Positions 14,211 to 29,439 of a DNA stretch of 61,832 nt are shown here, one piece after another. The position numbers and the translations under genes are program-made. The DNA comes from a virus. How positions within the stretch are numbered: position 1 is the stretch's first letter; each line of letters begins with the position of its first letter. Below the pieces are notes generated by a model that saw only the letters and a program-made list of their open reading frames with translations, searched no databases and was not told where the DNA came from. The stretch lies in the IMG/VR virus record IMGVR_UViG_3300031963_000148, positions 1 to 61,832 of that record. One strand, 5' to 3'.

Positions 14211-14218
14211 TGGTTATT

Positions 14219-14248
14219 GGGCCCCTGAGAGTGTCCTAGTAATGTAAG
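14219..14248 (+). promoter_or_regulatory. 30-bp repeated element, copy 1 of 14
   Basis: Consensus over the 14 copies: GGGCCCYTGAGATTGTCC, three variable bases, then TARTRTRAG. Here the middle reads GAGAGTG, the spacer is TAG and the end TAATGTAAG. It starts 8 nt after a stop codon and 43 nt before the next ATG. Bases T, A and final T of TARTRT are invariant, as in a -10 box, but no -35 lies at the right distance. It could be a promoter with an upstream activator box or a leader-RNA element. Confidence 0.7.
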
Positions 14249-17022: not shown

Positions 17023-17030
17023 ACTAAATA
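17023..17030 (+). promoter_or_regulatory. T4-type late promoter
   Basis: ACTAAATA followed by CCTAAAAAAGTA, 21 nt before the next ATG. The promoter at 18316 has almost the same sequence (CTAAATACTAAAAAGTA), so this CTAAATA form is likely functional here. Confidence 0.6.
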
Positions 17031-17051
17031 CCTAAAAAAGTATTTGTAACA

Positions 17052-17486: not shown

Positions 17487-17493
17487 GTAATCT

Positions 17494-17874: not shown

Positions 17875-17882
17875 TTTTAATT

Positions 17883-17912
17883 GGGCCCCTGGGATTGTCT
17901 CTATAGTGTAAT
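17883..17912 (+). promoter_or_regulatory. 30-bp repeated element, copy 2 of 14
   Basis: GGGCCCCTGGGATTGTCT, spacer CTA, TAGTGTAAT. Lies 8 nt after a stop and 12 nt before the next ATG. Two changes in the first block and one in the last relative to consensus, so this is one of the more divergent copies. Confidence 0.65.
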
Positions 17913-17924
17913 CACCCAAGCATT

Positions 17925-18059: not shown

Positions 18060-18087
18060 CAGATTTTAAACTGTCCACCAAATATCC

Positions 18088-18116
18088 CATACTGACCCTT
18101 CATTCTTTATTATACT
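18088..18116 (+). promoter_or_regulatory. possible promoter, same form as the one at 28546
   Basis: CATACTGA, 13 bp, ATTATACT. The same two blocks with the same 13-bp gap occur before the gene at 28585. The TATACT lies only 4 nt before the ATG here, so a transcript would be leaderless or nearly so. Weak -35. Confidence 0.3.
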
Positions 18117-18119
18117 CAA

Positions 18120-18320
18120 ATGACTGAACACATCCCTAACGTGCTTCCCCACATCCAAGAACTGAAAGATACTTGGAGGCGGCAAGATTTCACGTTCACT
18201 AAGCAACAACAAGAAGAATATGATTTGCTTCTTGCTACTCGCCGCGAACGTGTGAAGCAATTCTATGCAGAAGGACGTGTATTCAAAGGTTCATATAAAG
18301 CAAAGGAAGTGGAGTTCTAA
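18120..18320 (+). CDS. small protein, unknown function
   Basis: 66 residues: MTEHIPNVLPHIQELKDTWR, then a helix (QQQEEYDLLLATRRERVKQF) and a basic end. I have the impression of conservation in cyanophages. Its last bases form a late promoter for the next gene. Confidence 0.6.
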   Translation: MTEHIPNVLPHIQELKDTWRRQDFTFTKQQQEEYDLLLATRRERVKQFYAEGRVFKGSYKAKEVEF

Positions 18321-18323
18321 ATA
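18316..18323 (+). promoter_or_regulatory. T4-type late promoter
   Basis: TCTAAATA then CTAAAAAGTA, overlapping the previous stop codon, 25 nt before the internal-protein gene. Matches the promoter at 17023 over about 15 bases. Confidence 0.6.
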
Positions 18324-18347
18324 CTAAAAAGTAGTGTTTAGATAGCA

Positions 18348-18974
18348 ATGAAAACCTTTCAGGAGTTTATGTCTATTTGCGAAGCAACTGGTGACACCTA
18401 TGATGCAGAGTTTCGCTCTGGTGCTCAAGTCATTAAGACTGGAGAAGGTGGAAGAACTGGAAGACTTCGCAGAAAGACAACTCCTGAGATTCGTAGAACA
18501 AAGAGAGTTGGTGGTGGAAAGACTGCACCTGTAGTTCAGAAACCACGCAAAGATATTGGCAAGAAGCGTGAGTCTACGATTGAAGCACCAAAGCAAGAAC
18601 GTGGGTCCGCAAGAGAAGCACAACTAGCAGCTGCAAAGGAAGAGAGAAGAAAAGCTGCACAGGCAAGAATTGCTGCGAAAAAGGCAGGAGCAAAACCAGA
18701 AGCAGCAAAACCAAAAGAGAAAGAATTAAAAGCAAAAGCAACTGAACTGCTGAGAAAGAAAGCAGCACCTAAATCATCGGCAGCACCCAAAGATTCTAGA
18801 TTCTCAAGCTCAAGAAAACCTGAAGAGCACATGATTAAAGGCAAATATACCAAAGCAGAAAAGAAACAAATGGTAAGAGCAGGTAAGCAAAAACTGCGCG
18901 ATTTGGTTCTCAAAGCGACAGGTAAGAAGAAGGAAAGTGAATTGAAGCACAAGTACACTGGTCCTGATACTTGA
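18348..18974 (+). CDS. probable internal head protein, Lys/Ala-rich, capsid-targeted
   Basis: 208 residues starting MKTFQEFMSICE. This matches the T4 capsid-targeting sequence (MKTYQEFIAE) and is followed exactly by a gp21-type cleavage site (Ile10-Cys-Glu12/Ala13). The rest is strongly basic, histone-like (Lys, Ala, Arg-rich with KAKATELLRKKAAPK), suited to packing DNA in the head. Behind its own late promoter. Prediction: cleaved in the prohead, packaged, perhaps ejected into the host. Confidence 0.65.
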   Translation: MKTFQEFMSICEATGDTYDAEFRSGAQVIKTGEGGRTGRLRRKTTPEIRRTKRVGGGKTAPVVQKPRKDIGKKRESTIEAPKQERGSAREAQLAAAKEERRKAAQARIAAKKAGAKPEAAKPKEKELKAKATELLRKKAAPKSSAAPKDSRFSSSRKPEEHMIKGKYTKAEKKQMVRAGKQKLRDLVLKATGKKKESELKHKYTGPDT

Positions 18975-18977
18975 ATC

Positions 18978-19007
18978 GGGCCCCTGAGATTGTCCTTGTA
19001 ATATAAG
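18978..19007 (+). promoter_or_regulatory. 30-bp repeated element, copy 3 of 14
   Basis: GGGCCCCTGAGATTGTCC, spacer TTG, TAATATAAG. Starts 3 nt after a stop, 20 nt before the next ATG. Here TTGTCCTT and AAGGACAA form an 8-bp inverted repeat around the TAATAT core, found in full only in this copy. Confidence 0.7.
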
Positions 19008-19027
19008 GACAACACTCAAACGACACT

Positions 19028-19183
19028 ATGCTCTGGCAAGACCGCAACGGTAACTGGTTCAGCACCAAATCTACCCTCGATATTCAAATCGAACGGGCAA
19101 TGATTGAAGCAAACGCTAACAAAGTCTGGGAAGAAAAAGAACGTTCTGGTGATTGGTTGTTTGATGAAATGTTTGGTGGTTGA
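19028..19183 (+). CDS. very small protein, unknown function
   Basis: 51 residues, MLWQDRNGNWFSTKSTLD at the start, helix in the second half (ERAMIEANANKVWEEKE), DEMFGG end. Monocistronic between element copy 3 and the palindromic promoter. Confidence 0.55.
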   Translation: MLWQDRNGNWFSTKSTLDIQIERAMIEANANKVWEEKERSGDWLFDEMFGG

Positions 19184-19195
19184 TTAACTGCCATC

Positions 19196-19231
19196 AGCAC
19201 CCTTCACAAGCGTCAGGAAGGGTGCTATAAT
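19196..19231 (+). promoter_or_regulatory. sigma70-like promoter overlapped by a perfect palindrome
   Basis: AGCACCCTTC (19196-19205) and GAAGGGTGCT (19217-19226) are exact 10-bp inverted arms. TTCACA (19203-19208), 17-bp spacer and TATAAT (19226-19231, with TG before it) form a promoter whose -35 and -10 touch both arms. TTTTT follows at 19234, so the hairpin could also be a terminator for the gene before. Likely an operator-controlled promoter for the helicase gene. Confidence 0.6.
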
Positions 19232-19272
19232 GCTTTTTAGATACCAAACCACCCGAAACTCTGTAATTCGTA

Positions 19273-20520
19273 ATGATTCCTCATCTGATCAATCTTCGCC
19301 CTCATCAAGAACGTGGTGTTGCTGCTATGCAGAAGCACGACAAAGGGCAAATCATTGTTCCTACTGGCGGTGGTAAGACTCTCAAAATGATTTACGATTG
19401 TCTGCGTGAGTTGCAGTCTGAAACTCCCCAGACCATTGTTGTTGTTGCTCCCCGCATCTTGCTTGCTGAGCAACTCTCTGCTGAGTTTCTGGAGTTTATC
19501 ACCAACGCTGAAGTTCTTCACGTTCACAGTGGCGAGACTCATCACGTTAGCACTACCAAACCTGCTGACATTCTTGTTCATGCTGGTATGTGTGCTGCTG
19601 CTAATCGTCACCAACTGATCTTCACTACCTACAACTCTCTGTCGCGTCTTCAAGTGGCAGGAATTGATGTGGATACGATCTACTTTGATGAGGCACATAA
19701 TTCTGTTCAGCGTCACTTCTTTCCTGCAACTGAGCACTTTGCTGCTAATGCACGTCGTTGCTACTTCTTCACTGCAACTCCCAAACATTCTCTGGCAGTT
19801 GGCAAACCTGGCATGAATGATGCTGCTGTTTATGGTCAGGTAATCTGCAAAGTTCCTGCTCCTGAGTTGGTTGAAGGTGGTTACATTGTGCCTCCCAAAG
19901 TTATTGTCAAGCAACTGGCTATGGTGACTGGCAAGCAGACCAACTTCGACCGCGATTCGGAGAATCTGCTGGAAACGATTGATGAGAACAAGGTTGGTAA
20001 GATTCTGATTTGTGCTAAGGCAACCAAGCAAATCGTGTCTCTGGTGACTGAAACTGATTTCTGCTTCCAGTTGGAGTGTCGCGGTTATTCCTGGATGTAT
20101 ATTACTGCTAAGACTGGCGCAGTTATTGACGGCAAGAAGGTCAATCGTGAGGTGTTCTTTGACACTCTGAGCGCATGGGGTAAGGATAACGATAAGAAGT
20201 TTGTTGTTCTGCACCATAGCATCCTAGCTGAAGGCATCAATGTCTCTGGACTTGAGGCAGTTCTGTTCCTTCGCAACATGGACTTTATCGGTATCAGCCA
20301 AACTATTGGTCGCTGCATCCGTCTACATCATGACGATGCAAAAGGTCTCCGTGATGGTAGCATCCAACCTGGCAACCTGTCGCAATACACCAAGAGCTTT
20401 GGTCTTGTGTGTATTCCTGTCTACAGCAAGGTTGGTATCAGCACTGCCAAAGCTGTGCAGTCGGTTGTTGATACCATCTTTGAAAAAGGTGAACCTGCCG
20501 TGTCGGTGGTGAGGCGGTGA
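19273..20520 (+). CDS. SF2 DEAH-type helicase
   Basis: 415 residues. Walker A PTGGGKT (30-36), motif Ia-like VVVAPRILLAEQL (56-68), Walker B DEAH (139-142), motif III FTATP (166-170) and motif VI SQTIGRCIRL (about 342-351) are all in place, as in type III restriction / UvsW-like superfamily 2 helicases. Residues 1-12 (LRPHQERGV) form the Q-type start motif. It hydrolyses ATP to move on or remodel DNA; a UvsW-like role in recombination or replication start is possible. Has its own palindrome-overlapped promoter and a terminator after it. Confidence 0.88.
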   Translation: MIPHLINLRPHQERGVAAMQKHDKGQIIVPTGGGKTLKMIYDCLRELQSETPQTIVVVAPRILLAEQLSAEFLEFITNAEVLHVHSGETHHVSTTKPADILVHAGMCAAANRHQLIFTTYNSLSRLQVAGIDVDTIYFDEAHNSVQRHFFPATEHFAANARRCYFFTATPKHSLAVGKPGMNDAAVYGQVICKVPAPELVEGGYIVPPKVIVKQLAMVTGKQTNFDRDSENLLETIDENKVGKILICAKATKQIVSLVTETDFCFQLECRGYSWMYITAKTGAVIDGKKVNREVFFDTLSAWGKDNDKKFVVLHHSILAEGINVSGLEAVLFLRNMDFIGISQTIGRCIRLHHDDAKGLRDGSIQPGNLSQYTKSFGLVCIPVYSKVGISTAKAVQSVVDTIFEKGEPAVSVVRR

Positions 20521-20544
20521 GTCTCACTCAAGACTCAAGTGGCC

Positions 20545-20568
20545 ATCAGGTGTAAAAACCTGATTTTT
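20545..20568 (+). terminator. rho-independent terminator
   Basis: ATCAGGT, loop GTAAAA, ACCTGAT, then TTTTCT. Ends the helicase transcript. Confidence 0.75.
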
Positions 20569-20633
20569 CTGCAATTTCACTGCAACCGACCTAGAACCCA
20601 TCAACCGCAACAAAATCACCGATTTTTCTCAAA

Positions 20634-21164
20634 ATGAACCCGAAGAACTGGAAAGCCTACTGCAAAACAACATTCAACTCATTGCAGGCAAATGTAGACA
20701 ACTGGGGTGAACCTGATTTCTTCCGACCCATCACACGCATTTACTACATTGGTGTGTTTGATTGTGCTCAGGTAAATCATCTTGGATTGATAAGTGAAGG
20801 AGCGAAGAATAATCGAAAAGAGCGAACTTATGACCACTGTTTGTCACCACAATTCATTGGTCGAATGATTATGGATAACCCAGACAAATACCTGACAGAT
20901 TATGATATATTTGAGAACCTGTTTTGGTTATCTTGCTCCACAATCACAGTCACAAAGGATGAGAACAAGCGGTTGAGTATGCTCACAGAGAATAATGGTA
21001 TCGACTATAAAGTACACGTTCCAACTAATCTCAAGTACCAGCATCTTGACATCAAGTTGTATCGAAAGAGTGGTGCAAGATGGGAAAATGCTGTAGAATA
21101 TGATGACAACATTATTCCAGCTCCATCAGATTTGTTGGAGTATGAAAAGAAATTTCTTGTCTGA
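20634..21164 (+). CDS. protein of unknown function next to the Dam-like methylase
   Basis: 176 residues: MNPKNWKAYCKTTFNSLQ, RTYDHCLSPQFIGRMI, LTDYDIFENLFWLSCSTITVT and NNGIDYKVHVPTNLKY. Mixed alpha/beta; the acid-rich middle could be an enzyme core but no nuclease motif is clear. Six nt before the methylase gene, so perhaps functionally linked with DNA modification. Confidence 0.6.
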   Translation: MNPKNWKAYCKTTFNSLQANVDNWGEPDFFRPITRIYYIGVFDCAQVNHLGLISEGAKNNRKERTYDHCLSPQFIGRMIMDNPDKYLTDYDIFENLFWLSCSTITVTKDENKRLSMLTENNGIDYKVHVPTNLKYQHLDIKLYRKSGARWENAVEYDDNIIPAPSDLLEYEKKFLV

Positions 21165-21170
21165 GGTTAA

Positions 21171-21989
21171 ATGAACAAAACTTTTCTGAAATGGGCAGGA
21201 AACAAAACGAGAGTTCTGCCACATCTTATTCCTCACATCGGAAGTCCAAAGCGTTATTGTGAACCATTTGGTGGTAGTCTTGCTGTTGCTTTAAATACAC
21301 CAGCAGAACAATACATTCTCAACGATGTGAATAAAGATTTGGTAGCAATCTATCAGAATCTGGTGAATCCAAATGATGATAACTTCATCAAGTATTGTGA
21401 GGAACTATTCACTTCAGAGAATAACACCAAAGAAGCATATCTAGAGTTGCGAGAGCATTTTAATCAAGCAACAGATACTGTAGAGAGAGCACGACTGTTC
21501 ATTTACTTGAATCGTCACTGCTTTAATGGTTTGTCAAGATATAATAGTAAAGGTGGATTTAATGTCCCCTTTGGTAAGTATGACAAACCATCTTGTCCAT
21601 CGGAGGAAATGATGAACTTCAGGATGTATTTCTTATCCAAACAACTTGTGAGATTCACATCACTTTCTTTTGAAGATTCATCTCTCTATGAAGACTTGGA
21701 AGCAGGTGATGTTGTCTACTTCGACCCACCATATGTTCCTGCATCAGCCACTGCAAACTTCACAAGTTATGCTACTGATGGATTCACCTCCGACCAGCAG
21801 GTTCAATTAGCACAACTTACAGAATCTCTTGCAGCGAAGGGTATCAAAGTGATTGTGTCTAATCATGATGTTCCTATCACACGAGAACTCTACAAAAATG
21901 CTACAATCTACCCGATTCAAGTAACAAGAACTATTGCTGCAAAAAGTGGCAGTAGGAAGAAAGCAAGCGAACTCATTGCGGTGTATTGA
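21171..21989 (+). CDS. dam: Dam-like DNA adenine-N6 methyltransferase
   Basis: 272 residues, the usual size for the D12/Dam class. FLKWAGNK (5-12) is the Dam form of motif X, EPFGGS (31-36) is motif I for AdoMet, and VVYFDPPY (181-188) holds the catalytic DPPY. The family methylates adenine, mostly in GATC. Likely role: protection of phage DNA or marking strands. A MutH/Sau3AI-like gene lies 4 kb downstream. Confidence 0.9.
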   Translation: MNKTFLKWAGNKTRVLPHLIPHIGSPKRYCEPFGGSLAVALNTPAEQYILNDVNKDLVAIYQNLVNPNDDNFIKYCEELFTSENNTKEAYLELREHFNQATDTVERARLFIYLNRHCFNGLSRYNSKGGFNVPFGKYDKPSCPSEEMMNFRMYFLSKQLVRFTSLSFEDSSLYEDLEAGDVVYFDPPYVPASATANFTSYATDGFTSDQQVQLAQLTESLAAKGIKVIVSNHDVPITRELYKNATIYPIQVTRTIAAKSGSRKKASELIAVY

Positions 21990-22169
21990 ATGAAAGAAGG
22001 ATTTACGATGTTCAACGATACTTATGCTGCTATTCCTTATGGCAAGCAGTATCTTATCATTCATAATGGCCAACAACTTGAGAAAGTCTGTAGAACAGAA
22101 GCTTCTGCGCGAAAATACATTACAGACCATAAGAGGGGTAAAAGTGTGGCACAACTACCAATAGACTAA
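21990..22169 (+). CDS. small protein, unknown function
   Basis: 59 residues, MKEGFTMFNDTYAAIPYGK at the start; a strand-turn-helix pattern (YLIIHNGQQLEKVCRTEASA) and a basic end. Starts directly after the methylase stop. Could be a small partner of the methylase; no motif. Confidence 0.55.
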   Translation: MKEGFTMFNDTYAAIPYGKQYLIIHNGQQLEKVCRTEASARKYITDHKRGKSVAQLPID

Positions 22170-22172
22170 ATT

Positions 22173-22202
22173 GGGCCCTTGGGATTGTCCTAGTAGTATG
22201 AG
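22173..22202 (+). promoter_or_regulatory. 30-bp repeated element, copy 4 of 14
   Basis: GGGCCCTTGGGATTGTCC, spacer TAG, TAGTATGAG. Starts 4 nt after a stop. The ATG inside its last block is in frame with the next gene; another in-frame ATG lies 15 nt on. Confidence 0.7.
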
Positions 22203-23115
22203 TAAGCAACCAATGCAAAACAAGCACCTAGAGCATCCTGAAGACGAAATCCTAACGGGTAATCTATCTGTTCTTGACTGGTTTTCTGAGGTAGATTCTA
22301 CCATCAGCACCAAGATGGATGGTGCTCCTGCTATTGTTTGGGGCACTAATCCTGAGAATGGTAAGTTCTTTGTCTGCACCAAAGCAGCATTTAACAAGAA
22401 AAAGATTCGCCTTTGCTATACCGAAGACGACATCTTTACGCACTTTGGTGGTCAACCTCGCGTAACGCAAATTCTTATCTTCTGCCTGGATTTTCTTCCT
22501 CGCACTAAGAACGTGTATCAGGGGGATTGGATTGGTTTTGGTAGTGGATTGGATACATTCAAACCCAATACAATTACCTATCGCTTCCCTGAGATTGTTC
22601 GTCAGGAGATTATCATTGCCCCTCACACATATTACACTGGTGAGCGTCTGCCTGAGATGGTAGCTCATCCTATCGTGGGTAAGTTTGCAAGCACTAAAAA
22701 ATGCTTGTTTGTGCAACCTAGTGTGTCTATTTGTCCCTTCCGTGATGATATTGAAGACTTCTGCAAGTTTGCCAAGCAAATGAGCACACTTTGTGAGTTC
22801 GTGAATGTAAAGCAAGCAGCAGAACTCAAAAAAATCATCAATTCCTACGTTCGTGAGGGTAAGGAGGTGGATGAGCATGAAATTGCAGAAAATTATGATG
22901 TTGACATCAACCTGATGCGGCTTTGGAAGTTGGTTGAGTCTATCAAGATGGATTTGTTCTGCTTCATTGAGTCTGACACTGACATTACTTGTGAGATTGA
23001 TGGTGAACTCAGCGATCACGAAGGATTCGTAATGCACAACAAGTTTGGGTCTTACAAGATTGTGAATCGTGAAGAGTTTAGCAGGTTGAACTTCACTCTT
23101 GCAAAGAGTTGGTAA
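22198..23115 (+). CDS. ligase/nucleotidyltransferase-fold protein with KxDG motif
   Basis: 305 residues. STKMDGAPAIVWG (37-49) is motif I of the DNA/RNA ligase and capping-enzyme superfamily, with Lys39 as the expected nucleotide-accepting residue. Near the C-terminus EGFVMHNKFGSYKIVNREEF supplies motif IV (EGFV) and V (YKIV) equivalents. I know similar cyanophage proteins of about 300 residues that have no proven activity (a DUF6267-like family). Could seal RNA or DNA ends. The start uses the ATG inside repeat element 4; residue 6 is the other in-frame ATG. Confidence 0.75.
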   Translation: MSKQPMQNKHLEHPEDEILTGNLSVLDWFSEVDSTISTKMDGAPAIVWGTNPENGKFFVCTKAAFNKKKIRLCYTEDDIFTHFGGQPRVTQILIFCLDFLPRTKNVYQGDWIGFGSGLDTFKPNTITYRFPEIVRQEIIIAPHTYYTGERLPEMVAHPIVGKFASTKKCLFVQPSVSICPFRDDIEDFCKFAKQMSTLCEFVNVKQAAELKKIINSYVREGKEVDEHEIAENYDVDINLMRLWKLVESIKMDLFCFIESDTDITCEIDGELSDHEGFVMHNKFGSYKIVNREEFSRLNFTLAKSW

Positions 23116-23117
23116 CT

Positions 23118-23147
23118 GGGCCCTTGAGATTGTCCCTATAGTATGAG
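23118..23147 (+). promoter_or_regulatory. 30-bp repeated element, copy 5 of 14
   Basis: GGGCCCTTGAGATTGTCC, spacer CTA, TAGTATGAG. Starts 3 nt after a stop. Its ATG is in frame with the next gene; the alternative ATG is 15 nt on. Confidence 0.7.
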
Positions 23148-23574
23148 CACTCCTACGATGCAAGCACAAGCACAACAAACTATCGCAGAAAGCGTCCTTA
23201 AGAATACTCTGCTGCTGATTGAAGCACTGAAAGACAATTATCGTCAGTACGCTATTCGTGGGCATCAGCGTTCTGCGGAGCGTGGTGAAAGTGTAGAGTA
23301 TCATCTGCGCTGTATTGATGAACTCAAGAGTGGATTTTGTCCTATTGAGTATGAGATTGAAACTGGTAAAAAGTATCATAAAGTGATTATGATTACCAGT
23401 GGTATGTCTCGCTCTGTTCATTGCTTCATTGATAAGAACACTGGTGAAATGTATAAGTCTGCCTCCTGGAAATCTCCTGCGAAAGGTGTTCGTTATGATT
23501 TGCGATTGATAAAGGATCGTGAATATCTGCTGGAAAATGCTGATTGGTCTGGTGGTTATCTGTACGCAAAATGA
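23143..23574 (+). CDS. protein of unknown function
   Basis: 143 residues. Helical first 60 (QAQAQQTIAESVLKNTLLL), then a beta-rich half with HKVIMITSGMSRSVHCFIDK and GEMYKSASWKSPAKGVRYDL. The latter looks like a small nucleic-acid- or ligand-binding fold. Start inside element 5; the second ATG (MQAQAQ) at 23158 may be the real one. ATGA overlap downstream. Confidence 0.6.
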   Translation: MSTPTMQAQAQQTIAESVLKNTLLLIEALKDNYRQYAIRGHQRSAERGESVEYHLRCIDELKSGFCPIEYEIETGKKYHKVIMITSGMSRSVHCFIDKNTGEMYKSASWKSPAKGVRYDLRLIKDREYLLENADWSGGYLYAK

Positions 23575-23753
23575 GTAACATGAATTACCTTTGTTTTGTT
23601 GATGGTCTGCTAGAGTTTGCTAGTTCTGACCCTTCTTCTTTCGCACATTATCAGTTGGTGTATGCTGAAGAGCACAAAAATGCTAACGTTCAGTATCTTA
23701 CTCTCACAGACGAAGAGTATGACGAAATGTTCCCTTATGAGGAAGATGAATGA
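23571..23753 (+). CDS. small acidic protein, unknown function
   Basis: 60 residues, MSNMNYLCFVDGLLEFASS at the start; very acidic end (TDEEYDEMFPYEEDE). ATGA overlaps on both sides. A second ATG three codons in is also possible. Confidence 0.55.
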   Translation: MSNMNYLCFVDGLLEFASSDPSSFAHYQLVYAEEHKNANVQYLTLTDEEYDEMFPYEEDE

Positions 23754-24004
23754 CTTACTCTAACCTCTCAAAGATTCGTCCCAAACTGAGGACATCTGGC
23801 AACGTCACAGGTAACTTTGGACGCCCCAAAGCTAAAGCAGGTTCATCACTCAATGAGATTGGTGGTGATGGTAACATAGGTCTTACGCAGAATGAGTATC
23901 TGAATCGACTGTATTATGCTCTTGATAACACCACAGACGCTAAACTTCGTCAGTTCATTTATACTGAGATAAAAAAGATTCTCATTCAACAAGGCCGCTG
24001 GTGA
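23750..24004 (+). CDS. small protein, unknown function
   Basis: 84 residues: a basic, Gly-rich first half (SKIRPKLRTSGNVTGNFGRPK) and a helical second half (TDAKLRQFIYTEIKKILIQ). Starts in an ATGA overlap; element copy 6 follows. Confidence 0.55.
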   Translation: MTYSNLSKIRPKLRTSGNVTGNFGRPKAKAGSSLNEIGGDGNIGLTQNEYLNRLYYALDNTTDAKLRQFIYTEIKKILIQQGRW

Positions 24005-24012
24005 TTGAAACT

Positions 24013-24042
24013 GGGCCCTTGAGATTGTCCCTATAGTATGAG
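24013..24042 (+). promoter_or_regulatory. 30-bp repeated element, copy 6 of 14
   Basis: GGGCCCTTGAGATTGTCC, spacer CTA, TAGTATGAG, identical to copy 5 over all 30 bases. Starts 9 nt after a stop. The ATG in its last block is the only plausible start for the next gene. Confidence 0.7.
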
Positions 24043-24277
24043 CAACACCATCGTTTCCGAAGTCTACTCCTACCACACAAATTGGAAGGAAGGTAAAGTC
24101 AATCAAATGTGGATTGAGCAAATCACTGATAAAGAGTGCGACAATCTCTATGTCGCTGTTGCATACAATCCTAGCAACGGTTCCAAGATGGAGATGAGCA
24201 ATCCTCGCACATCTTACCATGAAACTCTAAACTGGGTTCGCGGTTGGTGTGGCACTTTCTGTATCCTTCCTGCTTGA
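24038..24277 (+). CDS. small protein, unknown function; start lies inside the repeated element
   Basis: 79 residues, MSNTIVSEVYSYHTNWKEG at the start. Beta-like middle (LYVAVAYNPSNGSKMEM) and a C-terminal WVRGWCGTFCILPA with two Cys. No other ATG, GTG or TTG lies near the start, so translation must begin within the 30-bp element. Unknown function. Confidence 0.6.
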   Translation: MSNTIVSEVYSYHTNWKEGKVNQMWIEQITDKECDNLYVAVAYNPSNGSKMEMSNPRTSYHETLNWVRGWCGTFCILPA

Positions 24278-24279
24278 TT

Positions 24280-24444
24280 ATGCTTTACAACATTCGCGTT
24301 GAGTTTAGAGATGGAACTGTTGAGAAGTTCCAACGCAAAAGTAACATCAAACCTCTCAACTGTGTCAAACTGAACGAAAAAATTGCCAACGAAATCTTCC
24401 CACGAGAGTGGAAAGAAATCACCTCTATTCCTGTTTATTCCTGA
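24280..24444 (+). CDS. small protein, unknown function
   Basis: 54 residues, MLYNIRVEFRDGTVEKFQR at the start, three or four strands and a helix. Begins 2 nt after the previous stop. Not recognised. Confidence 0.55.
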   Translation: MLYNIRVEFRDGTVEKFQRKSNIKPLNCVKLNEKIANEIFPREWKEITSIPVYS

Positions 24445-24446
24445 TT

Positions 24447-24722
24447 ATGTTCCGCACACTTTCCCAACTCCGTGATTCAATCAACCAACTGATTGAGCAA
24501 CAAGGTGAAGACGCAGGTTGTGCTGCGTTTATATACACTCAAGAGGATGTCTTTGAGTTTGATGCTAATGATAAGGAAGTGCGTTTCTCTAAACAACTCA
24601 CTGAAGATGTGCTCTGTGATGTAGGAGGTTCTTCCTACGTTTATGAACAGATTGGTGAGATGATTGATGACTACATTTCTATGCGTAAGGGTATGTCAAT
24701 CTACCAAGAATCGGTGAACTGA
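24447..24722 (+). CDS. small protein, unknown function
   Basis: 91 residues: helix (LSQLRDSINQLIEQQ), a strand with GCAAFIYTQEDVFEF, then acidic helices (YVYEQIGEMIDDYIS). ATG 2 nt after the previous stop chosen over extensions into it. Unknown. Confidence 0.55.
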   Translation: MFRTLSQLRDSINQLIEQQGEDAGCAAFIYTQEDVFEFDANDKEVRFSKQLTEDVLCDVGGSSYVYEQIGEMIDDYISMRKGMSIYQESVN

Positions 24723-24724
24723 TT

Positions 24725-24919
24725 ATGACTGACGGTTACACTTTCAATCGCGTTGAGTTCACTGCTAATGAGGAAACTTGCATCTTAAAGTTTCTCAATC
24801 AAGCACGAGAATGTGGATACCCAAGTGGTAACGAAGAATGGTATCCTGTGATTGATTCCATCTTCCAAAAGTTTTTCAATTCTAACATCAAAGAAGCACA
24901 GGAGTTTCAAACACTATGA
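24725..24919 (+). CDS. small protein, unknown function
   Basis: 64 residues, MTDGYTFNRVEFTANEETC at its start, mostly helical, aromatic end. Starts 2 nt after the previous stop; ATGA overlap follows. Confidence 0.55.
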   Translation: MTDGYTFNRVEFTANEETCILKFLNQARECGYPSGNEEWYPVIDSIFQKFFNSNIKEAQEFQTL

Positions 24920-25059
24920 AATACGAAGTTCAACTCTACGTTGGTGGTAAAGTCTTCAAAGAGGAAGTGTATGCTAACTCCCCAAAAGATGCCCGCGAAA
25001 CAGCAACAGCACGAAATCCTACAGCAAAGGTGATTGGTGTCAATGCAACGTTTAAGTAA
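24916..25059 (+). CDS. very small conserved cyanophage-type protein
   Basis: 47 residues: KYEVQLYVGGKVFKEEVY, a helix (PKDARETATARNP), and AKVIGVNATF. A complete tiny beta-beta-alpha-beta fold. I associate near-identical short proteins with many cyanophages; function unknown. Confidence 0.65.
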   Translation: MKYEVQLYVGGKVFKEEVYANSPKDARETATARNPTAKVIGVNATFK

Positions 25060-25061
25060 TT

Positions 25062-25091
25062 GGGCCCTTGAGATTGTCCCTATAGTATGAA
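25062..25091 (+). promoter_or_regulatory. 30-bp repeated element, copy 7 of 14
   Basis: GGGCCCTTGAGATTGTCC, spacer CTA, TAGTATGAA. Starts 3 nt after a stop. Its ATG is the only plausible start of the next gene. Confidence 0.7.
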
Positions 25092-25260
25092 CACTAACTA
25101 CAACGCCAATCCTTACAAGCAACAGGTTCTCGATAAGTGTCGTGACCTGCCTAAAGCTTCTGCTTCAAAGCGTACCTTTCCTTGCACGATTGGTTATCGT
25201 ACCTTTGAGACTGAAGCTGAGTATCAGGAAGCACTTGCTGACTTTCTGAACGGTTATTGA
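25087..25260 (+). CDS. small protein; start lies inside the repeated element
   Basis: 57 residues: Asn/Tyr-rich start (MNTNYNANPYKQQVL), a basic turn, then TIGYRTFETEAEYQEALADF. No other start codon lies in the first 20 codons. Ends directly before element copy 8, so the gene is framed by two copies. Unknown function. Confidence 0.6.
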   Translation: MNTNYNANPYKQQVLDKCRDLPKASASKRTFPCTIGYRTFETEAEYQEALADFLNGY

Positions 25261-25264
25261 AACT

Positions 25265-25294
25265 GGGCCCCTGAGATTGTCCCTGTAGTATGAC
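25265..25294 (+). promoter_or_regulatory. 30-bp repeated element, copy 8 of 14
   Basis: GGGCCCCTGAGATTGTCC, spacer CTG, TAGTATGAC. Starts 5 nt after a stop. Its ATG is the only plausible start of the next gene. Confidence 0.7.
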
Positions 25295-25463
25295 ACAAAC
25301 CACTTTCACAGTTCGATTCGATTCCAATGCACTCAATTCTCCTGAGTATGTTGGACCTTTCTACAGTGAAGATGATGCCCAAGAGTATTGCGACGACCGC
25401 AACGGTTCTTTAGCACTTTCGGGTATTCCTTCCTGGGTTGCCTGTTACTCTGTTGTTGATTGA
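25290..25463 (+). CDS. small protein; start lies inside the repeated element
   Basis: 57 residues: FTVRFDSNALNSPEYVG, FYSEDDAQEYCDDRNGS and an IPSWVACYSVVD end. Alpha/beta with SEDDAQEY, the same helix form (EEAQ/DEAQ) seen in other small genes here. Start depends on the ATG in element copy 8. Confidence 0.6.
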   Translation: MTQTTFTVRFDSNALNSPEYVGPFYSEDDAQEYCDDRNGSLALSGIPSWVACYSVVD

Positions 25464-25465
25464 TT

Positions 25466-25687
25466 ATGACTTTTACTGACGCACTGATTGCATCTGGTTA
25501 TGTATTTGATGATGAAAATTATGATGGTTGTTATGTAAAACAAGATGATGACGGTTTCATTCACCTTTATCAGGAAAATGTGGATGATGAGACTGACACT
25601 CTCTGGAATTATGTCAAGATGAGTGATGATTTTGATGTGCTCCATGAGGTTACTTTCAATCCTGATGTGAACACTGTTATTCAATGA
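25466..25687 (+). CDS. small acidic protein, unknown function
   Basis: 73 residues, MTFTDALIASGYVFDDENY at its start, over a quarter Asp/Glu, strand-rich. Begins 2 nt after the previous stop; ATGA overlap downstream. Confidence 0.55.
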   Translation: MTFTDALIASGYVFDDENYDGCYVKQDDDGFIHLYQENVDDETDTLWNYVKMSDDFDVLHEVTFNPDVNTVIQ

Positions 25688-25923
25688 TTTCCCTTCCTAA
25701 TCCCACAAACAAAATGACTGAAATGACTCCTGATTTTAGCACTGTTGTTGAGAACTATGCTCAGATGATTTTGGATGGTATGGATTACAAATCTCTCGAA
25801 CAGTTTGCACTTGATACTCTCATTGATAACCTCACGAAACAGTTTGAAACTGTAGATGAGTTGATTGAAGAAATCCGCGAAATCTATGATGATGAAGTTG
25901 CAAACGATCTTGTTGGGCAATAG
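25684..25923 (+). CDS. small acidic helical protein (cyanophage type)
   Basis: 79 residues. YAQMILDGMDYKSLEQFALD then DELIEEIREIYDDEVANDL, a pattern I associate with a conserved short cyanophage protein. An ATG eleven codons on (MTEMTPDF) is a possible later start. Unknown function. Confidence 0.6.
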   Translation: MISLPNPTNKMTEMTPDFSTVVENYAQMILDGMDYKSLEQFALDTLIDNLTKQFETVDELIEEIREIYDDEVANDLVGQ

Positions 25924-25928
25924 AAACT

Positions 25929-25958
25929 GGGCCCCTGAGATTGTCCTTGTAGTATAAG
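25929..25958 (+). promoter_or_regulatory. 30-bp repeated element, copy 9 of 14
   Basis: GGGCCCCTGAGATTGTCC, spacer TTG, TAGTATAAG. Starts 6 nt after a stop and 13 nt before the ATG of the MutH-like gene. No ATG in this copy. Confidence 0.7.
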
Positions 25959-25970
25959 AGCACAACCACG

Positions 25971-26561
25971 ATGCCAAAACTGACAACGAACGAAGTATTT
26001 GCGAAACTGAATGTTACTGACTTCAGTGCATTTGATAAACCAGGAAAGAACAAAGGTGCTCGTGGGCAACTGTTAGAAATTGCACTGGGAGTTCCTAACT
26101 CTTCTGACCTGCAAGATCTGGAAGATGGGGAAATTAAGACTTTCACAGTTGGAGAGTCGATTGCTGCCACACAGTTGAAGCATTGTCTATCTGAAATCAT
26201 CGAAGATTCTGTCTCGTTTGATGATAGCAAAGTCGGGCAGAAACTAAAGCAAACTCTGTATGTTGGATTCACTCGTGAGAACGATTATATGGGTTCCGCT
26301 ATTCTGAATGAGGAAACTCATGCGGAGCACTATCAAGAATTGCGTGAGGATTATGAGTTCATTTGTAACAGCATTCGCACACTTTTCGATGCTGGTAAAC
26401 AACTAGGAACCATCACTGGACCTAACGGATTGCTGCAGATTCGCACGAAAGCATCTAAAACCAACGGCCGCTATGTACCTCTGACATTTGCAGGTGTGAC
26501 GCTTAAGGATAAGGGAATGGCGTTTTATTTGTGTGGATCTTTTGGTCGCAATCTGTTCTGA
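25971..26561 (+). CDS. MutH/Sau3AI-like endonuclease candidate
   Basis: 196 residues. KNKGARGQLLEIALGV (26-41) matches the start of the MutH/Sau3AI nuclease core, with Glu36 as first acid; SSDLQDLEDGEIKTFTV (44-60) supplies a further acid and the Glu54-x-Lys56 pair; TQLKHCLSEII continues as in that fold. MutH nicks and Sau3AI cuts at GATC depending on adenine methylation. A Dam-like methylase is encoded 4 kb upstream. Activity and site are inferred, and the second acid is not placed with certainty. Confidence 0.6.
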   Translation: MPKLTTNEVFAKLNVTDFSAFDKPGKNKGARGQLLEIALGVPNSSDLQDLEDGEIKTFTVGESIAATQLKHCLSEIIEDSVSFDDSKVGQKLKQTLYVGFTRENDYMGSAILNEETHAEHYQELREDYEFICNSIRTLFDAGKQLGTITGPNGLLQIRTKASKTNGRYVPLTFAGVTLKDKGMAFYLCGSFGRNLF

Positions 26562-26569
26562 TAGAAACT

Positions 26570-26599
26570 GGGCCCCTGAGATTGTCCTAGTAGTATAAG
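26570..26599 (+). promoter_or_regulatory. 30-bp repeated element, copy 10 of 14
   Basis: GGGCCCCTGAGATTGTCC, spacer TAG, TAGTATAAG. Starts 9 nt after a stop and 15 nt before the next ATG. No ATG in this copy. Confidence 0.7.
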
Positions 26600-26614
26600 C
26601 ACTGAGAAACCACA

Positions 26615-26812
26615 ATGAACTTCTACAAAGTAACTGAAATTGAGTTTGATTTTGACTACGAAGATCTCACTGAAGAAGAGAAAGATGAGATTGTAAATGA
26701 TGCAAAGAATTGTCTGTGGGATTCACCTGATGGTGAGGATTGTCTTGCAGATGTTATCACAAACAATACAGGATGGTGCATAAAATCACTTCGCTACGAC
26801 GTAGTAAATTGA
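26615..26812 (+). CDS. small acidic protein, unknown function
   Basis: 65 residues, MNFYKVTEIEFDFDYEDLTE at the start; a ferredoxin-like beta-alpha-beta size with three Cys (NCLW, DCLA, WCIK). Behind element copy 10. A TTG start overlaps its stop. Confidence 0.55.
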   Translation: MNFYKVTEIEFDFDYEDLTEEEKDEIVNDAKNCLWDSPDGEDCLADVITNNTGWCIKSLRYDVVN

Positions 26813-26919
26813 AGACAATTCTGTTAATCTTCATCGTTGCGAGTATTTTATCACCTGGAGTTCGCAACACTACTGCAAGCGCATTGCACACTGTAGCAGA
26901 CATTATTTCGCCACAATGA
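26809..26919 (+). CDS. 36-residue exported or membrane peptide (TTG start)
   Basis: Begins with TTG in a TTGA overlap with the previous stop: MKTILLIFIVASILSPGVR (first residue from TTG), then TTASALHTVADIISPQ. I associate HTVAD-type peptides of this size with other cyanophages, which supports the non-ATG start. Single hydrophobic helix; function unknown. Confidence 0.5.
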   Translation: MKTILLIFIVASILSPGVRNTTASALHTVADIISPQ

Positions 26920-27065
26920 TTGAACTTCTGATTGCATCAACCATTATCGGAGCGACTGAAATTGCACCGAATGTTTTACAAGTTCAGTATCTTACCCCAA
27001 ACAATTCTATCGTCACTATTCTTGAAAATGTTGAAATCAAAGGAGGAGAAATTGACCATGATTGA
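26916..27065 (+). CDS. very small protein, unknown function
   Basis: 49 residues, MIELLIASTIIGATEIAPNV at the start, hydrophobic first third that could be a signal or anchor, then beta-like. ATGA overlap upstream; its 3' part holds the GGAGGAG used by the next gene. Confidence 0.5.
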   Translation: MIELLIASTIIGATEIAPNVLQVQYLTPNNSIVTILENVEIKGGEIDHD

Positions 27066-27183
27066 GACTGAATATCATACAATTCCTGAAAACATTTACG
27101 AGGAAATCAAAGACGAAGCAATCGAACTTGGCATCAGTATTGATTACTATTTGATGGAGTTTTGTCATATATCTGAAGAATAA
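27058..27183 (+). CDS. 41-residue protein
   Basis: MIETEYHTIPENIYEEIKDE at the start, an acidic helix, then SIDYYLMEFCHISEE; resembles a short ribbon-helix-helix unit (strand, helix, helix) but is unproven. Strong AAAGGAGGAG lies 7 nt before the ATG, which fixes the start against longer frames. Confidence 0.55.
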   Translation: MIETEYHTIPENIYEEIKDEAIELGISIDYYLMEFCHISEE

Positions 27184-27203
27184 ATCAAAAGTTGATAAAA
27201 ACT

Positions 27204-27233
27204 GGGCCCCTGAGATTGTCCCTATAGTATGAA
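27204..27233 (+). promoter_or_regulatory. 30-bp repeated element, copy 11 of 14
   Basis: GGGCCCCTGAGATTGTCC, spacer CTA, TAGTATGAA. Starts 21 nt after a stop. Its ATG is in frame with the next gene; a second in-frame ATG is 21 nt on. Confidence 0.7.
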
Positions 27234-27429
27234 CACCAACGCTTTCCAAATGTCTAAAGTTTATGCTGTAATTGGTGGCATTGATTATGAAGGTGAAGAC
27301 TTCAAATCTCTCCGCTTGTTTGATTGCTTCTCCGCTGCAGATGCTTACCTGAAGCAGTTAGAATCTGAGTTCGATTATGTACTTCTCGAAACCCGTGAGG
27401 TATGTCTGGAGTCTGCAATCGCTGCCTGA
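27229..27429 (+). CDS. small conserved cyanophage-type protein
   Basis: 66 residues from the element ATG, or 59 from the ATG at 27250, where the sequence reads MSKVYAVIGGIDYEGEDFKS. As I remember cyanophage relatives, they begin at that second Met, so the later start is quite likely. Further SAADAYLKQLESEFDYVLLE. Compact alpha/beta; function unknown. Confidence 0.65.
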   Translation: MNTNAFQMSKVYAVIGGIDYEGEDFKSLRLFDCFSAADAYLKQLESEFDYVLLETREVCLESAIAA

Positions 27430-27437
27430 TAGAAACT

Positions 27438-27467
27438 GGGCCCCTGAGATTGTCCCTGTAGTATAAC
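27438..27467 (+). promoter_or_regulatory. 30-bp repeated element, copy 12 of 14
   Basis: GGGCCCCTGAGATTGTCC, spacer CTG, TAGTATAAC. Starts 9 nt after a stop and 17 nt before the next ATG. No ATG in this copy. Confidence 0.7.
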
Positions 27468-27483
27468 CACTGAACTTCCAACC

Positions 27484-27801
27484 ATGCGTAAGATTGAACT
27501 CCAAATGAACAAAGCAATCTGTGATTGCAAAGACTGGAAAAATGACAACACTGAGGTAACTTATTCGCCCGAACGTGATGCTTCATATGTTATGCTTCAT
27601 GGCAATCATATCGCAACGATTGGTGATACCTTCCTTGAACTTTACACCTGTGGGTATAAGACTGTTACCACCAAATCACGTCTCAATGCTATTCTGAAAG
27701 TTCACGGAAATGATGCCCGTATCTTTCAACGTGACTTTGAATGGTTTGTGATTGATAATGGCAACACAGTTCCTTTCACTGAAGGTATGGTGCTTAACTA
27801 A
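27484..27801 (+). CDS. conserved cyanophage-type protein, unknown function
   Basis: 105 residues: MRKIELQMNKAICDCKDWK, NTEVTYSPERDASYVMLHGN, HIATIGDTFLELYTCGYKT, VTTKSRLNAIL and a FEWFVIDNG strand. I recognise the KIE.QM...DW...NTEV pattern from cyanophages. Probably a small beta-barrel-like fold; role unknown. TAATG overlap downstream. Confidence 0.7.
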   Translation: MRKIELQMNKAICDCKDWKNDNTEVTYSPERDASYVMLHGNHIATIGDTFLELYTCGYKTVTTKSRLNAILKVHGNDARIFQRDFEWFVIDNGNTVPFTEGMVLN

Positions 27802-27974
27802 TGACTGAAGCACAAAAGATTGAAGCACTGACTGATCTTCTAGAAAGCGTTATTCATCGTCTTAATATGAAACAATATGAGATTGAAGATGCAAACGAAT
27901 CTCATCAATGTGAGGTAGAAGCAGACAACTATTACCAAAAGATGATCTCCATTCTTCACACTTCAAACGACTGA
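27801..27974 (+). CDS. small helical protein
   Basis: 57 residues, MTEAQKIEALTDLLESVIHR at the start, acidic coiled-coil-like helix. Resembles the protein at 11841 in size and helix type. Starts one base inside the previous stop. Confidence 0.55.
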   Translation: MTEAQKIEALTDLLESVIHRLNMKQYEIEDANESHQCEVEADNYYQKMISILHTSND

Positions 27975-27987
27975 CCTAACAAATACT

Positions 27988-28017
27988 GGGCCCCTGAGAT
28001 TGTCCTAGTAGTATGAG
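27988..28017 (+). promoter_or_regulatory. 30-bp repeated element, copy 13 of 14
   Basis: GGGCCCCTGAGATTGTCC, spacer TAG, TAGTATGAG. Starts 14 nt after a stop. Its ATG is in frame with the next gene; the alternative ATG is 15 nt on. Confidence 0.7.
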
Positions 28018-28285
28018 CACTTCCCAAATGTCTTTCCCTTATCTCCACATCGACAATAGCACTCTTGCTAATCACACTTCGATCTTTTTTAAGGTCAGTG
28101 CTGATACTCAAGATTCCTGGATTAACAACATTTTCCATAACTCACGATATGGAATCTTCTGTCTTGCTGATGGCAAACTGGAACTGATTTCAAAAGGTTT
28201 GAATACAACCAAGTTCCGCAAGTGTAAGTGCAATGATGAGCCAACTGCACTGCAAAAGATTCAACAATGGATGGATAAGTTCTGA
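28013..28285 (+). CDS. small protein, unknown function
   Basis: 90 residues from the element ATG or 85 from the ATG at 28028 (MSFPYLHIDNSTLANH). Middle WINNIFHNSRYGIFCLADGK and a Lys/Cys turn (FRKCKCNDEP), then a helix. TGATG overlap with the first of two paralogous small genes. Confidence 0.6.
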   Translation: MSTSQMSFPYLHIDNSTLANHTSIFFKVSADTQDSWINNIFHNSRYGIFCLADGKLELISKGLNTTKFRKCKCNDEPTALQKIQQWMDKF

Positions 28286-28419
28286 TGTTCACCATTCGCT
28301 ACTTTACGCCTTATCAACAACAATGGAGAACGCAATCATTCTCTACACTTGATGAAGCACAACGCATGATAGAGTTCTATAAATCGTGTGGTAGTCCTGC
28401 TGAATTAGTAACACAATGA
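28285..28419 (+). CDS. small protein, tandem paralog 1
   Basis: 44 residues: MFTIRYFTPYQQQWRTQS, then FSTLDEAQRMIEFYKSCGSP. The next gene has the same plan (strand, FST-x-x-EA-x-RM helix, Gly turn), so a local tandem duplication is evident. Overlaps on both sides. Confidence 0.6.
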   Translation: MFTIRYFTPYQQQWRTQSFSTLDEAQRMIEFYKSCGSPAELVTQ

Positions 28420-28553
28420 GAACAACGATTCGCTGGTTTTGTCCTTACTCTCAAGGATGGAAGTTTCAAGGTTTCAGTACCTACAATGAAGCAGAAAGAA
28501 TGGTTGATTTCTATACACGAGCAGGAACGATTGCAACCATTATGACATACTGA
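28416..28553 (+). CDS. small protein, tandem paralog 2
   Basis: 45 residues: MRTTIRWFCPYSQGWKFQG, then FSTYNEAERMVDFYTRAGTI. Aligns with the previous 44-residue protein along its whole length. ATGA overlap. Unknown function. Confidence 0.6.
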   Translation: MRTTIRWFCPYSQGWKFQGFSTYNEAERMVDFYTRAGTIATIMTY

Positions 28554-28574
28554 TTCACTCCAGTTCATTATACT
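28546..28574 (+). promoter_or_regulatory. possible promoter, same form as the one at 18088
   Basis: CATACTGA, 13 bp, ATTATACT, 11 nt before the gene at 28585. Shares block sequence and spacing with 18088. Weak -35. Confidence 0.3.
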
Positions 28575-28584
28575 TTTTTCCAAA

Positions 28585-28821
28585 ATGTTACTCTCCAAAG
28601 CATCATTCAACGATCAACAAGTTCTCCCCTTCATTGTAAAGAAAGAGAAGGAAAGAAGTGAGGATGGTAGTTACTCACTGCACCTATTCTCCCGAATTGT
28701 TATGACGAAGGAAGGCAAGAAGTATAGGTATTTGCCTCTACGATTTGAAGGTGAAGAAGCACGATTCCGCAAACGTAGCGATGCAGAGGATTATGCTCGT
28801 TACCGATTAGCACTTGATTGA
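28585..28821 (+). CDS. small basic protein, unknown function
   Basis: 78 residues, MLLSKASFNDQQVLPFIVKK at its start, strand-rich with KEGKKYRYLPLRF and a helix (RKRSDAEDYARYRLALD). Last gene before a strong terminator and the gene-free stretch. Confidence 0.6.
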   Translation: MLLSKASFNDQQVLPFIVKKEKERSEDGSYSLHLFSRIVMTKEGKKYRYLPLRFEGEEARFRKRSDAEDYARYRLALD

Positions 28822-28831
28822 ATACACATAG

Positions 28832-28856
28832 AGAGGGGATCTAACCCCTCTTTTTT
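28832..28856 (+). terminator. strong rho-independent terminator
   Basis: AGAGGGG, loop ATCTAA, CCCCTCT, then six T. Closes the element-rich gene block. Confidence 0.88.
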
Positions 28857-28930
28857 AATGCCTAAAAACGTGATTTAGTGTCAAAAATGTATTAAAACGT
28901 TTAATAAAGCCTTTTTTAAATATAGCTGAG

Positions 28931-28973
28931 TTTTCAACAGCCTTGTGGAAAAGCTTGTGGAATCTGTGGAATA
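28931..28973. repeat. cluster of DnaA-box-like 9-mers
   Basis: TGTGGAAAA (28944-28952) is the exact complement of the cyanobacterial DnaA box TTTTCCACA. TGTGGAATC (28956) and TGTGGAATA (28965) differ in one or two bases, and TTTTCAACA (28931) is a one-mismatch box on the other strand. Three same-direction copies lie within 30 bp. Confidence 0.5.
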
Positions 28974-28977
28974 AAGC

Positions 28978-29028
28978 CCTTTTAAATCCTTCTAGACCCC
29001 GTAACTTATGCCTTTTAAATCCTTCTAG
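28978..29028 (+). repeat. 18-bp direct repeat, two exact copies
   Basis: CCTTTTAAATCCTTCTAG at 28978-28995 and again at 29011-29028, 33 bp apart. A looser relative (CCTTTTTTAAAT) lies near 28911. Confidence 0.75.
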
Positions 29029-29151
29029 GTCTTGTGATCTTTGCGTGCAAGCTATCACACACTCTCCAAAATGTCAAGCACCCCGACGTTTCCAAATCCC
29101 CACAATCACCCTCATAAAATATCAACACCCCTCATAAATACACCCAAGGTC

Positions 29152-29180
29152 TTGACACATTGCCCCCAGCATCTTATAGT
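29152..29180 (+). promoter_or_regulatory. strong sigma70-like promoter
   Basis: TTGACA (perfect), 17-bp spacer, TATAGT. Transcription should start near 29187, 23 nt before the ATG at 29210. Confidence 0.8.
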
Positions 29181-29209
29181 AGCCACAGTAACACTCACGG
29201 AGCACACTT

Positions 29210-29383
29210 ATGTCGGTTGCGTATCGCCAAGCCCAGAAGCAGCGTTATAGGGTCACTCTAGAGCTTGAGGTCTTCGAAGACTTCGACCCGCATCAACTTG
29301 ACTGGGATAAAGTATTCAAATTGGAACCAGCTGAGCGTGTGTCAGCTTATGTGGAAGACCTCAGCCGTCCTGATAAGTGGTAA
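29210..29383 (+). CDS. small conserved cyanophage-type protein
   Basis: 57 residues: MSVAYRQAQKQRYRVTLELE, VFEDFDPHQLDWDKVF, LEPAERVSAYVEDLSRPDKW. I recall close relatives in many cyanophages, always this short. Directly behind the best sigma70-like promoter in the window, so probably expressed early and strongly. Function unknown. Confidence 0.7.
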   Translation: MSVAYRQAQKQRYRVTLELEVFEDFDPHQLDWDKVFKLEPAERVSAYVEDLSRPDKW

Positions 29384-29409
29384 CTCATACCGACTGAGTG
29401 AGTATTATT

Positions 29410-29439
29410 GGGCCCCTGAGATTGTCCCCATAGTGTAAG
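29410..29439 (+). promoter_or_regulatory. 30-bp repeated element, copy 14 of 14
   Basis: GGGCCCCTGAGATTGTCC, spacer CCA, TAGTGTAAG. Starts 27 nt after a stop and 16 nt before the next ATG. TTGTCC and GGACAA form a 6-bp inverted repeat here. Rightmost copy; none seen in the virion module. Confidence 0.7.

Follow-up and report, generated by a model that had tools for sequence, protein, structure and literature searches.

How early and middle genes are controlled in T4-like cyanophages without MotA and AsiA has been described as unknown (PMC2984593); cyanomyoviruses lack motA and asiA (PMC2984593), two genes that were not searched for in the present analysis. The search of S-SM2 by Sullivan et al. 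covered only sigma70, T4-late, Pho and NtcA sites (PMC3037559). Leaderless messenger RNAs (mRNAs) require AUG (PMC4611024). Phage-specific promoters and leaderless mRNAs are already known kinds; their combination in one repeated promoter family appears to be new. Here, a repeated element of the form TGGGCCCYTGRGATTGTCCNNNTARTRTRA is described from a 61,832-nt (61.8-kb) fragment of a T4-like cyanophage (IMG/VR record IMGVR_UViG_3300031963_000148), the whole of which is called the window below. The closest phage records to the window are Synechococcus phages, and baseplate wedge genes are also present in it. The element is read as a non-sigma70 phage promoter with a predicted RNA start at the purine after TAGT and with AUG at +1 or later, a reading to which we give a probability of about 0.7. 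Neither a published description of the element nor transcript data for an element carrier were found in the open-licence literature.

Results

Probable in-element start codons

Fourteen copies lie in the window, from 14218 to 29438, all on the + strand and each directly before a gene; an earlier description made from the letters alone (the sequence-only reading) had drawn the span too narrowly, at 22198-28017. In its general form the element has a 5' box, constant per phage but differing between phages, and a near-universal core, AAAGTGTCCYNNTAGT-R-T-R-A. Seven copies are closed by TAGTATGA (at 22194, 23139, 24034, 25083, 25286, 27225, and 28009; an eighth match in the window, at 14606, is unrelated to the element), and the ATG in all seven (22198, 23143, 24038, 25087, 25290, 27229, and 28013) is in frame with a long open reading frame (ORF), as the sequence-only reading had noticed; the chance of 7/7 in frame is p ~4.6e-4. 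For the genes at 24038, 25087, and 25290, where that reading had likewise seen no other start nearby, a second ATG is absent within 30 nt. The alternative ATGs that it placed 15-25 nt on are found at +15 or +21 in four ATG copies and, where the element lacks an ATG (seven copies), at 17, 17, 18, 20, 20, 21, and 25 nt from that point (in frame in 2/7).

A larger set, drawn from related viral contigs, holds 605 copies that precede a gene, in 104 families. Here the frame of the in-element ATG agrees with that of the gene in 327 cases and disagrees in 15-18; counted by gene family, 48 are mostly in frame vs 5 mostly out. Non-ATG copies, used as a control, fall evenly over the three frames (96/84/83), so the in-frame excess is not due to fixed spacing. 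In 129 copies from 21 families the in-element ATG is the only in-frame one within 45 nt, and in 41/67 copies the DUF6267-type gene family starts right there, again without a further ATG close by. About half of the out-of-frame cases have a short upstream frame that stops on or beside the real ATG, as in translational coupling; short frames ending in TAATG or ATGA over the real start are seen at L052_m_10459, L056_p_13852, L115_p_10797, L167_p_3822, and L039_p_4234. From one orthologue to another the start can move between the element ATG and one further downstream: in one contig (L004) the element reads ATA and the sequence after it ACC-ATG-ATC, where the window has ATG and ACC-ATC, respectively; in another (L005) an element precedes a gene in which ATA has replaced the gene's own ATG (window 23750).

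Base and codon counts at the start purine were taken on loci found without selecting for ATG. The two purine positions gave ATG 115, ATA 50, GTG 6, and GTA 77 (Fisher p = 1e-22, indicative only, the copies being related). In the full set, GTG stands at the site in 11 copies and is used as a start in none (0/11), vs 327 in-frame ATG, which is what leaderless initiation, with AUG required and GUG unused, predicts (PMC4611024). The in-element ATG is very probably a start codon.

Predicted transcription start

That a -10 at TARTRT conflicts with the in-element ATG had been pointed out, rightly, in the sequence-only reading, which was also right to take that ATG as a real start codon. Taken as a -10, TARTRT would put the RNA start ~8 nt past the purine, and the in-element ATGs would fall outside that RNA. 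Directly after TAGT, 98% of unseeded loci (this position having been left free) have a purine, preceded by a pyrimidine, whereas only 32-40% of copies have one 8 nt further on, at the +1 predicted from a TARTRT -10; in the same contigs, the figure for the sigma70 +1 is 89%. Among 58 strong sigma70 promoters of these contigs, RTA stands at +1 in 27 and at any other offset in at most six, and it peaks at the same offset in the sigma70 promoters of S-SRM01 and S-CAM7 (21 and 28 hits), for example in TATAAT-N6-ATAAGCAACCAAACCGATG and TATAAT-N6-GTAATCAAGGGAACC, with GTAATCAAGGGAACCAGCAATG and ATAAGCAACGGACACCAATG as further starts. On orthologous genes, the sigma70 RNAs of these relatives begin, at canonical spacing, as the element does (ATAAGCA, GTAATCAAGG). 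From its purine on, the element (ATAAGCAC...) matches the initial sequences of S-SRM01/S-CAM7 sigma70 transcripts, as does the variant of P-TIM68, ...TTATTAAT-GTAATCAAGGAA...ATG (AAATTGACTTATTAAT-GTAATCAAGGAATGAAATTATG).

Measured from the purine, the first long ORF starts at 0 nt in 109 copies, at 2 nt in one copy, and at at least 15 nt in ~135 copies, with none at 3-14 nt; non-ATG copies have a median distance of 21 nt, equal to the sigma70 leader median of 21 nt. We infer that the ribosome can use a 5'-terminal AUG or an AUG with enough leader, and hardly one in between. The RNA start is probably the purine after TAGT, and TARTRT is probably not a -10. The sequence-only reading had left two ways out of the conflict, a transcript starting unusually close or an element inside the mRNA. 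The former is the better supported and the latter the less so, since the sigma70 RNAs of relatives begin with the post-TAGT sequence, the purine frequencies differ as given (98% vs 32-40%), and starts lie at 0 or at least 15 nt. With a transcript start at this purine the mRNA would begin at the ATG itself, and where ATG sits at the predicted start it would be leaderless. Beyond what that reading held, the seven non-ATG copies give ordinary ~20-nt leaders from the same start, and the element is widespread and lineage-specific, standing where relatives have ordinary promoters.

The best surviving of the rival explanations, and still an unlikely one, takes TARTRT as a -10 and the lineage box as the site of a MotA-like activator, with RNA starting 7-9 nt past the purine and the in-element ATGs serving read-through RNA only. 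It accommodates the match to T-12, A-11, and T-7 of a -10, the co-directional gene directly upstream of most copies, and the second in-frame ATG kept in many ATG copies, most often at +15; it does not accommodate the low purine frequency at its own +1, leaves the 129 genes above not expressible from their own promoter, and puts at -8 to -1 a sequence that is the RNA start in relatives. Nor does it suit the ATG-only gene at 2876 of contig L039, which lies after a reverse-oriented HNH-like gene.

Promoters at the same place in relatives

For seven element-driven families, the orthologue in S-SRM01 or S-CAM7 has a promoter in the corresponding position, and in six of the seven a clear -10 hexamer stands at canonical spacing from the RTA start. 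S-SRM01 has them before three families (one with less regular spacing) and S-CAM7 before four, including those of window genes 25290, 25971, 27484, and 29455. The element itself is not of sigma70 type: with +1 at the purine, its -10 reads TGTCCY (2-3/6) and its -35 scores 0-3/6.

These same genes bear on an RNA processing site, at which a phage nuclease would cut read-through mRNA at TAGT^R into leaderless or short-leader messages. We hold this to be improbable: what stands before the orthologues in relatives, with the same 5' sequence, is a sigma70 promoter and not a processing site; the folding analysis gave no RNA structure; and a few copies come after a reverse-oriented gene or a terminator-like hairpin. 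In its favour are the place of the element between packed co-directional genes and a 5' end at the same base, which would account for the spacing of 0 or at least 15 nt. Over 197 loci, no RNA fold common to the copies was found (mean z +0.22, best mean pair probability 0.30), and the element matched no Rfam family. A shared hairpin was considered and rejected: S-SM2 can form GGG-U-CGC-CUAAA-GCG-U-CCC, other lineages cannot, and mean z is +0.22. The least probable explanation, an in-mRNA translation signal or leader unrelated to transcription start, fits a start codon within or directly after every window copy and A/C-rich leaders without a clear Shine-Dalgarno site, but leaves the strict purine, the 3-14 nt gap, and the match to sigma70 initial sequences unexplained, has neither a folding signal nor an Rfam family, and would have the box vary between phages although the ribosome does not.

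In the promoter reading, the lineage-specific box (~-33 to -17) and the shared core (AAAGTGTCC, -16 to -8; TAGT, -4 to -1) would together direct initiation at the purine directly after TAGT. In one mode the first three transcribed bases would be AUG, giving a leaderless mRNA; in the other the first bases would be GUA or AUA, with AUG ~15-26 nt later after an A/C-rich leader. The anatomy of the element, its in-frame ATG, its use as a start codon, and its match to initial sequences of sigma70 transcripts are observed in the DNA itself. That it acts as a promoter, where exactly the RNA starts, and that translation is leaderless are predictions.

Several points weigh against this promoter reading. 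The start site is a prediction from sequence. TARTRT scores 3-4/6 as a -10 (4/6 in most copies) and carries the key T, A, and T. With +1 at the purine, TGTCCY at -12 to -7 should not be opened by any sigma70 holoenzyme, so that another recognising factor is required. The copies are related by descent, so that p-values are indicative and the counts overstate independent events. Lastly, 550/570 copies directly follow the stop codon of a same-strand gene, so read-through RNA is likely anyway. It is less likely in L039, where the ATG-only gene (2876) is downstream of the reverse-oriented HNH-like gene. In that contig, the HNH-like endonuclease gene (2289-2828, - strand) is inserted directly upstream of the element copy.

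Distribution among cyanophages

Among T4-like cyanophages (Kyanoviridae), the element forms a putative promoter family. An ATG-free search pattern picked it up in 16 viral-contig stretches, of which one has almost the same sequence as the window. It is present in many environmental contigs, and the core TGTCCCTATAGTATGA or a close form occurs also in cultured marine phages. Its form is AAAGGGGGGTCGCCTAAAGCGTCCCTATAGT-ATG in S-SM2 and TTACTCACCTCTAAAGTGTCCCTATAGT-ATG in SynMITS9220M01, and in both the annotated genes start at that ATG. Both have genes without another start close by, for example at 53466 in S-SM2 and at 48601 in SynMITS9220M01. Copies of one contig are 90% identical in the 5' part (-28 to -17) and 94% in the core (-16 to -1); for copies from different contigs the values are 47% and 88%, respectively. 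Copies are limited to one cluster of small genes upstream of baseplate genes (S-SM2, 42.7-57.1 kb; SynMITS9220M01, 36.3-50.0 kb). No match was obtained in Syn9, S-PM2, P-SSM2, S-CRM01, Bellamy, and DSL-LC02, and in S-SRM01, as in S-CAM7, a single stray match lies outside the small-gene cluster.

Two phages carry diverged forms. P-TIM68 (L343 14066-22967) has 13 copies of GTTAGTTACCTCTAAATTGANNNATTAAT-GTAATCAAGG, without an in-element ATG and with a Shine-Dalgarno-like AAGGAA in several leaders; S-B05 (L344; 31.7-40.3 kb and 156-157 kb of the record) has another, TCACCTCTAAAGGTCACCTATAGTACGATACC, in ten places. In S-CAM7 (L245 ~12000-16000), a series resembling the PeSL cassettes of T4-type phages, with a variable stem-loop and then TGCTACAATTGATTC-ATACCAAACAAAGGAACC-ATG, precedes most genes of the orthologous cluster.

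Copies in the window

The first three copies end in GTAA, GTAA, and ATAA: copy 1 (14218..14247), with a predicted transcription start site (TSS) at 14244 and the gene's ATG 18 nt on; copy 2 (17882..17911), predicted TSS 17908, ATG 17 nt on; and copy 3 (18977..19006), predicted TSS 19003, ATG 25 nt on. Five ATGA copies follow, in which the predicted TSS coincides with the start codon: copy 4 (22172..22201; start 22198), before a DUF6267/phrog_455 gene, and copy 5 (23117..23146; start 23143), before a DUF7717/phrog_818 gene, both with a second ATG at +15 (in frame in copy 4); and, with no other start near, copy 6 (24012..24041; start 24038), copy 7 (25061..25090; start 25087; phrog_649 gene), and copy 8 (25264..25293; start 25290; phrog_28075 gene), whose S-CAM7 orthologue has a TACAAT sigma70-type promoter. 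Copy 9 (25928..25957; ATAA; predicted TSS 25954; ATG 17 nt on) precedes a phrog_15364 gene and copy 12 (27437..27466; ATAA; predicted TSS 27463; ATG 21 nt on) a phrog_554 gene, the S-CAM7 orthologue having a TACAAT promoter in either case; so has that of the phrog_871 gene after copy 14 (29409..29438; GTAA; predicted TSS 29435; ATG 20 nt on). The remaining copies are 10 (26569..26598; ATAA; predicted TSS 26595; ATG 20 nt on), 11 (27203..27232; ATGA; predicted TSS and start 27229; second ATG at +21), and 13 (27987..28016; ATGA; predicted TSS and start 28013; second ATG at +15).

Inside the element cluster, a canonical sigma70 promoter, TTGACA-N17-TATAGT, lies at ~29144-29175 before the gene at 29210, the leader of which has a GGAG Shine-Dalgarno-like site; element leaders are without one. 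Elsewhere in the window, a 4122-codon ORF (35014-47382) adjoins the baseplate wedge genes, its N-terminal part matching the Pfam baseplate wedge model weakly, and a long glycine-rich repeat tract (GGTGGCGGC units; 56853-57254) is contained in a 567-aa ORF (55593-57296).

A candidate recognition factor

A 208-aa basic protein is encoded at 18348..18974 (+ strand), and its homologues accompany the element. Its N-terminus is of T4-like capsid-targeting type (MKTFQEFMSICEA...), MKTFQEF...EA being what we take to be a resemblance to the T4 capsid-targeting sequence. The S-SM2 homologue (49522-50103 of S-SM2; L248 9522-10100), an ORF that is an annotated gene, is rich in lysine and arginine. The gene is present in S-SM2, SynMITS9220M01, contig G003, and the window's relative, and absent from six non-carriers; homologues occur in many element-bearing contigs. 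Only ten of 50,697 phage records have it: among these, S-SM2, SynMITS9220M01, and AG-345-O18 carry the element, P-TIM68 and S-B05 the diverged forms, and AG-345-E15 two weak matches, in a comparison that left out RN05-S and RB11-B. With the gene lying within the element cluster, the co-occurrence could be due to nothing more than linkage, and the basic protein is put forward as a lead for the recognising factor, not as a claim.

A gp55-size Sigma70_r2 protein, most likely gp55, is not peculiar to carriers, being present also in the non-carrier S-SRM01. A search with PF00940 (T7-type polymerase) gave no match in six records, its positive control being silent as well. A CCCTATAGTG string resembles the reverse complement of the T7 promoter, presumably by coincidence.

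Discussion

If the promoter reading holds, the element would be a concrete answer to early and middle gene control for a clade with the cultured phages S-SM2, SynMITS9220M01, and, as a variant, P-TIM68, and each phage would have ~ten such promoters, every one with a single, precisely predicted start site. Genes predicted to be leaderless stand next to leadered sisters that the same promoter would drive, which would make a natural experiment on leaderless translation in cyanobacteria. The element also bears on where many small phage genes are annotated to start. A more far-reaching proposal is doubtful: an undescribed class of cyanophage promoter, read by a phage-specified factor, with a box diversified like those of T7-like polymerases, a ~ten-transcript regulon of small variable genes, and routine leaderless mRNAs, in which the factor could be the basic protein. 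Were this true and the basic protein packaged in the virion, the factor would enter the cell with the DNA.

Comparison with known systems

The host-type sigma70 early promoters of S-SRM01 and S-CAM7 share with the element their place before orthologous genes, a start at RTA(A/C)GCA or GTAATCA, and a ~21-nt leader; unlike them, the element has no TTGACA or TATAAT at canonical spacing, combines a lineage box with a fixed core, and can have the start codon as +1. With T4 middle promoters (MotA box and -10) it has in common a phage-specific box upstream of the start and genes of prereplicative type, but its consensus holds no MotA box (TTTGCTTTA-like), and the +1 proposed here misfits a -10 at TARTRT. 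The T4 late promoter sequence, TATAAATA, is absent from the element; two such sites occur in the window, neither at a copy.

The PeSL cassettes of T4-type phages are, like the element, repeated intergenic promoter cassettes among small variable genes, and S-CAM7 carries a PeSL-like stem-loop plus TACAAT; in such cassettes a stem-loop is joined to an early sigma70 promoter, whereas the element showed neither (folding over 197 loci). The phage sigma promoters of phiEco32 and 7-11 (TAATGTATA) are likewise short, specific to the phage, and in the service of one temporal class of genes (PMC4331800); the element differs from them in sequence and in an extra box that varies between phages, and no matching sigma gene was identified. 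Finally, the messages predicted here resemble the leaderless mRNAs of phages and bacteria (e.g., lambda cI) in having AUG at the 5' end and in GUG being unusable; unlike in the known cases, the lack of a leader would be a property of a repeated promoter family, other copies of which would give leadered messages in the same phage.

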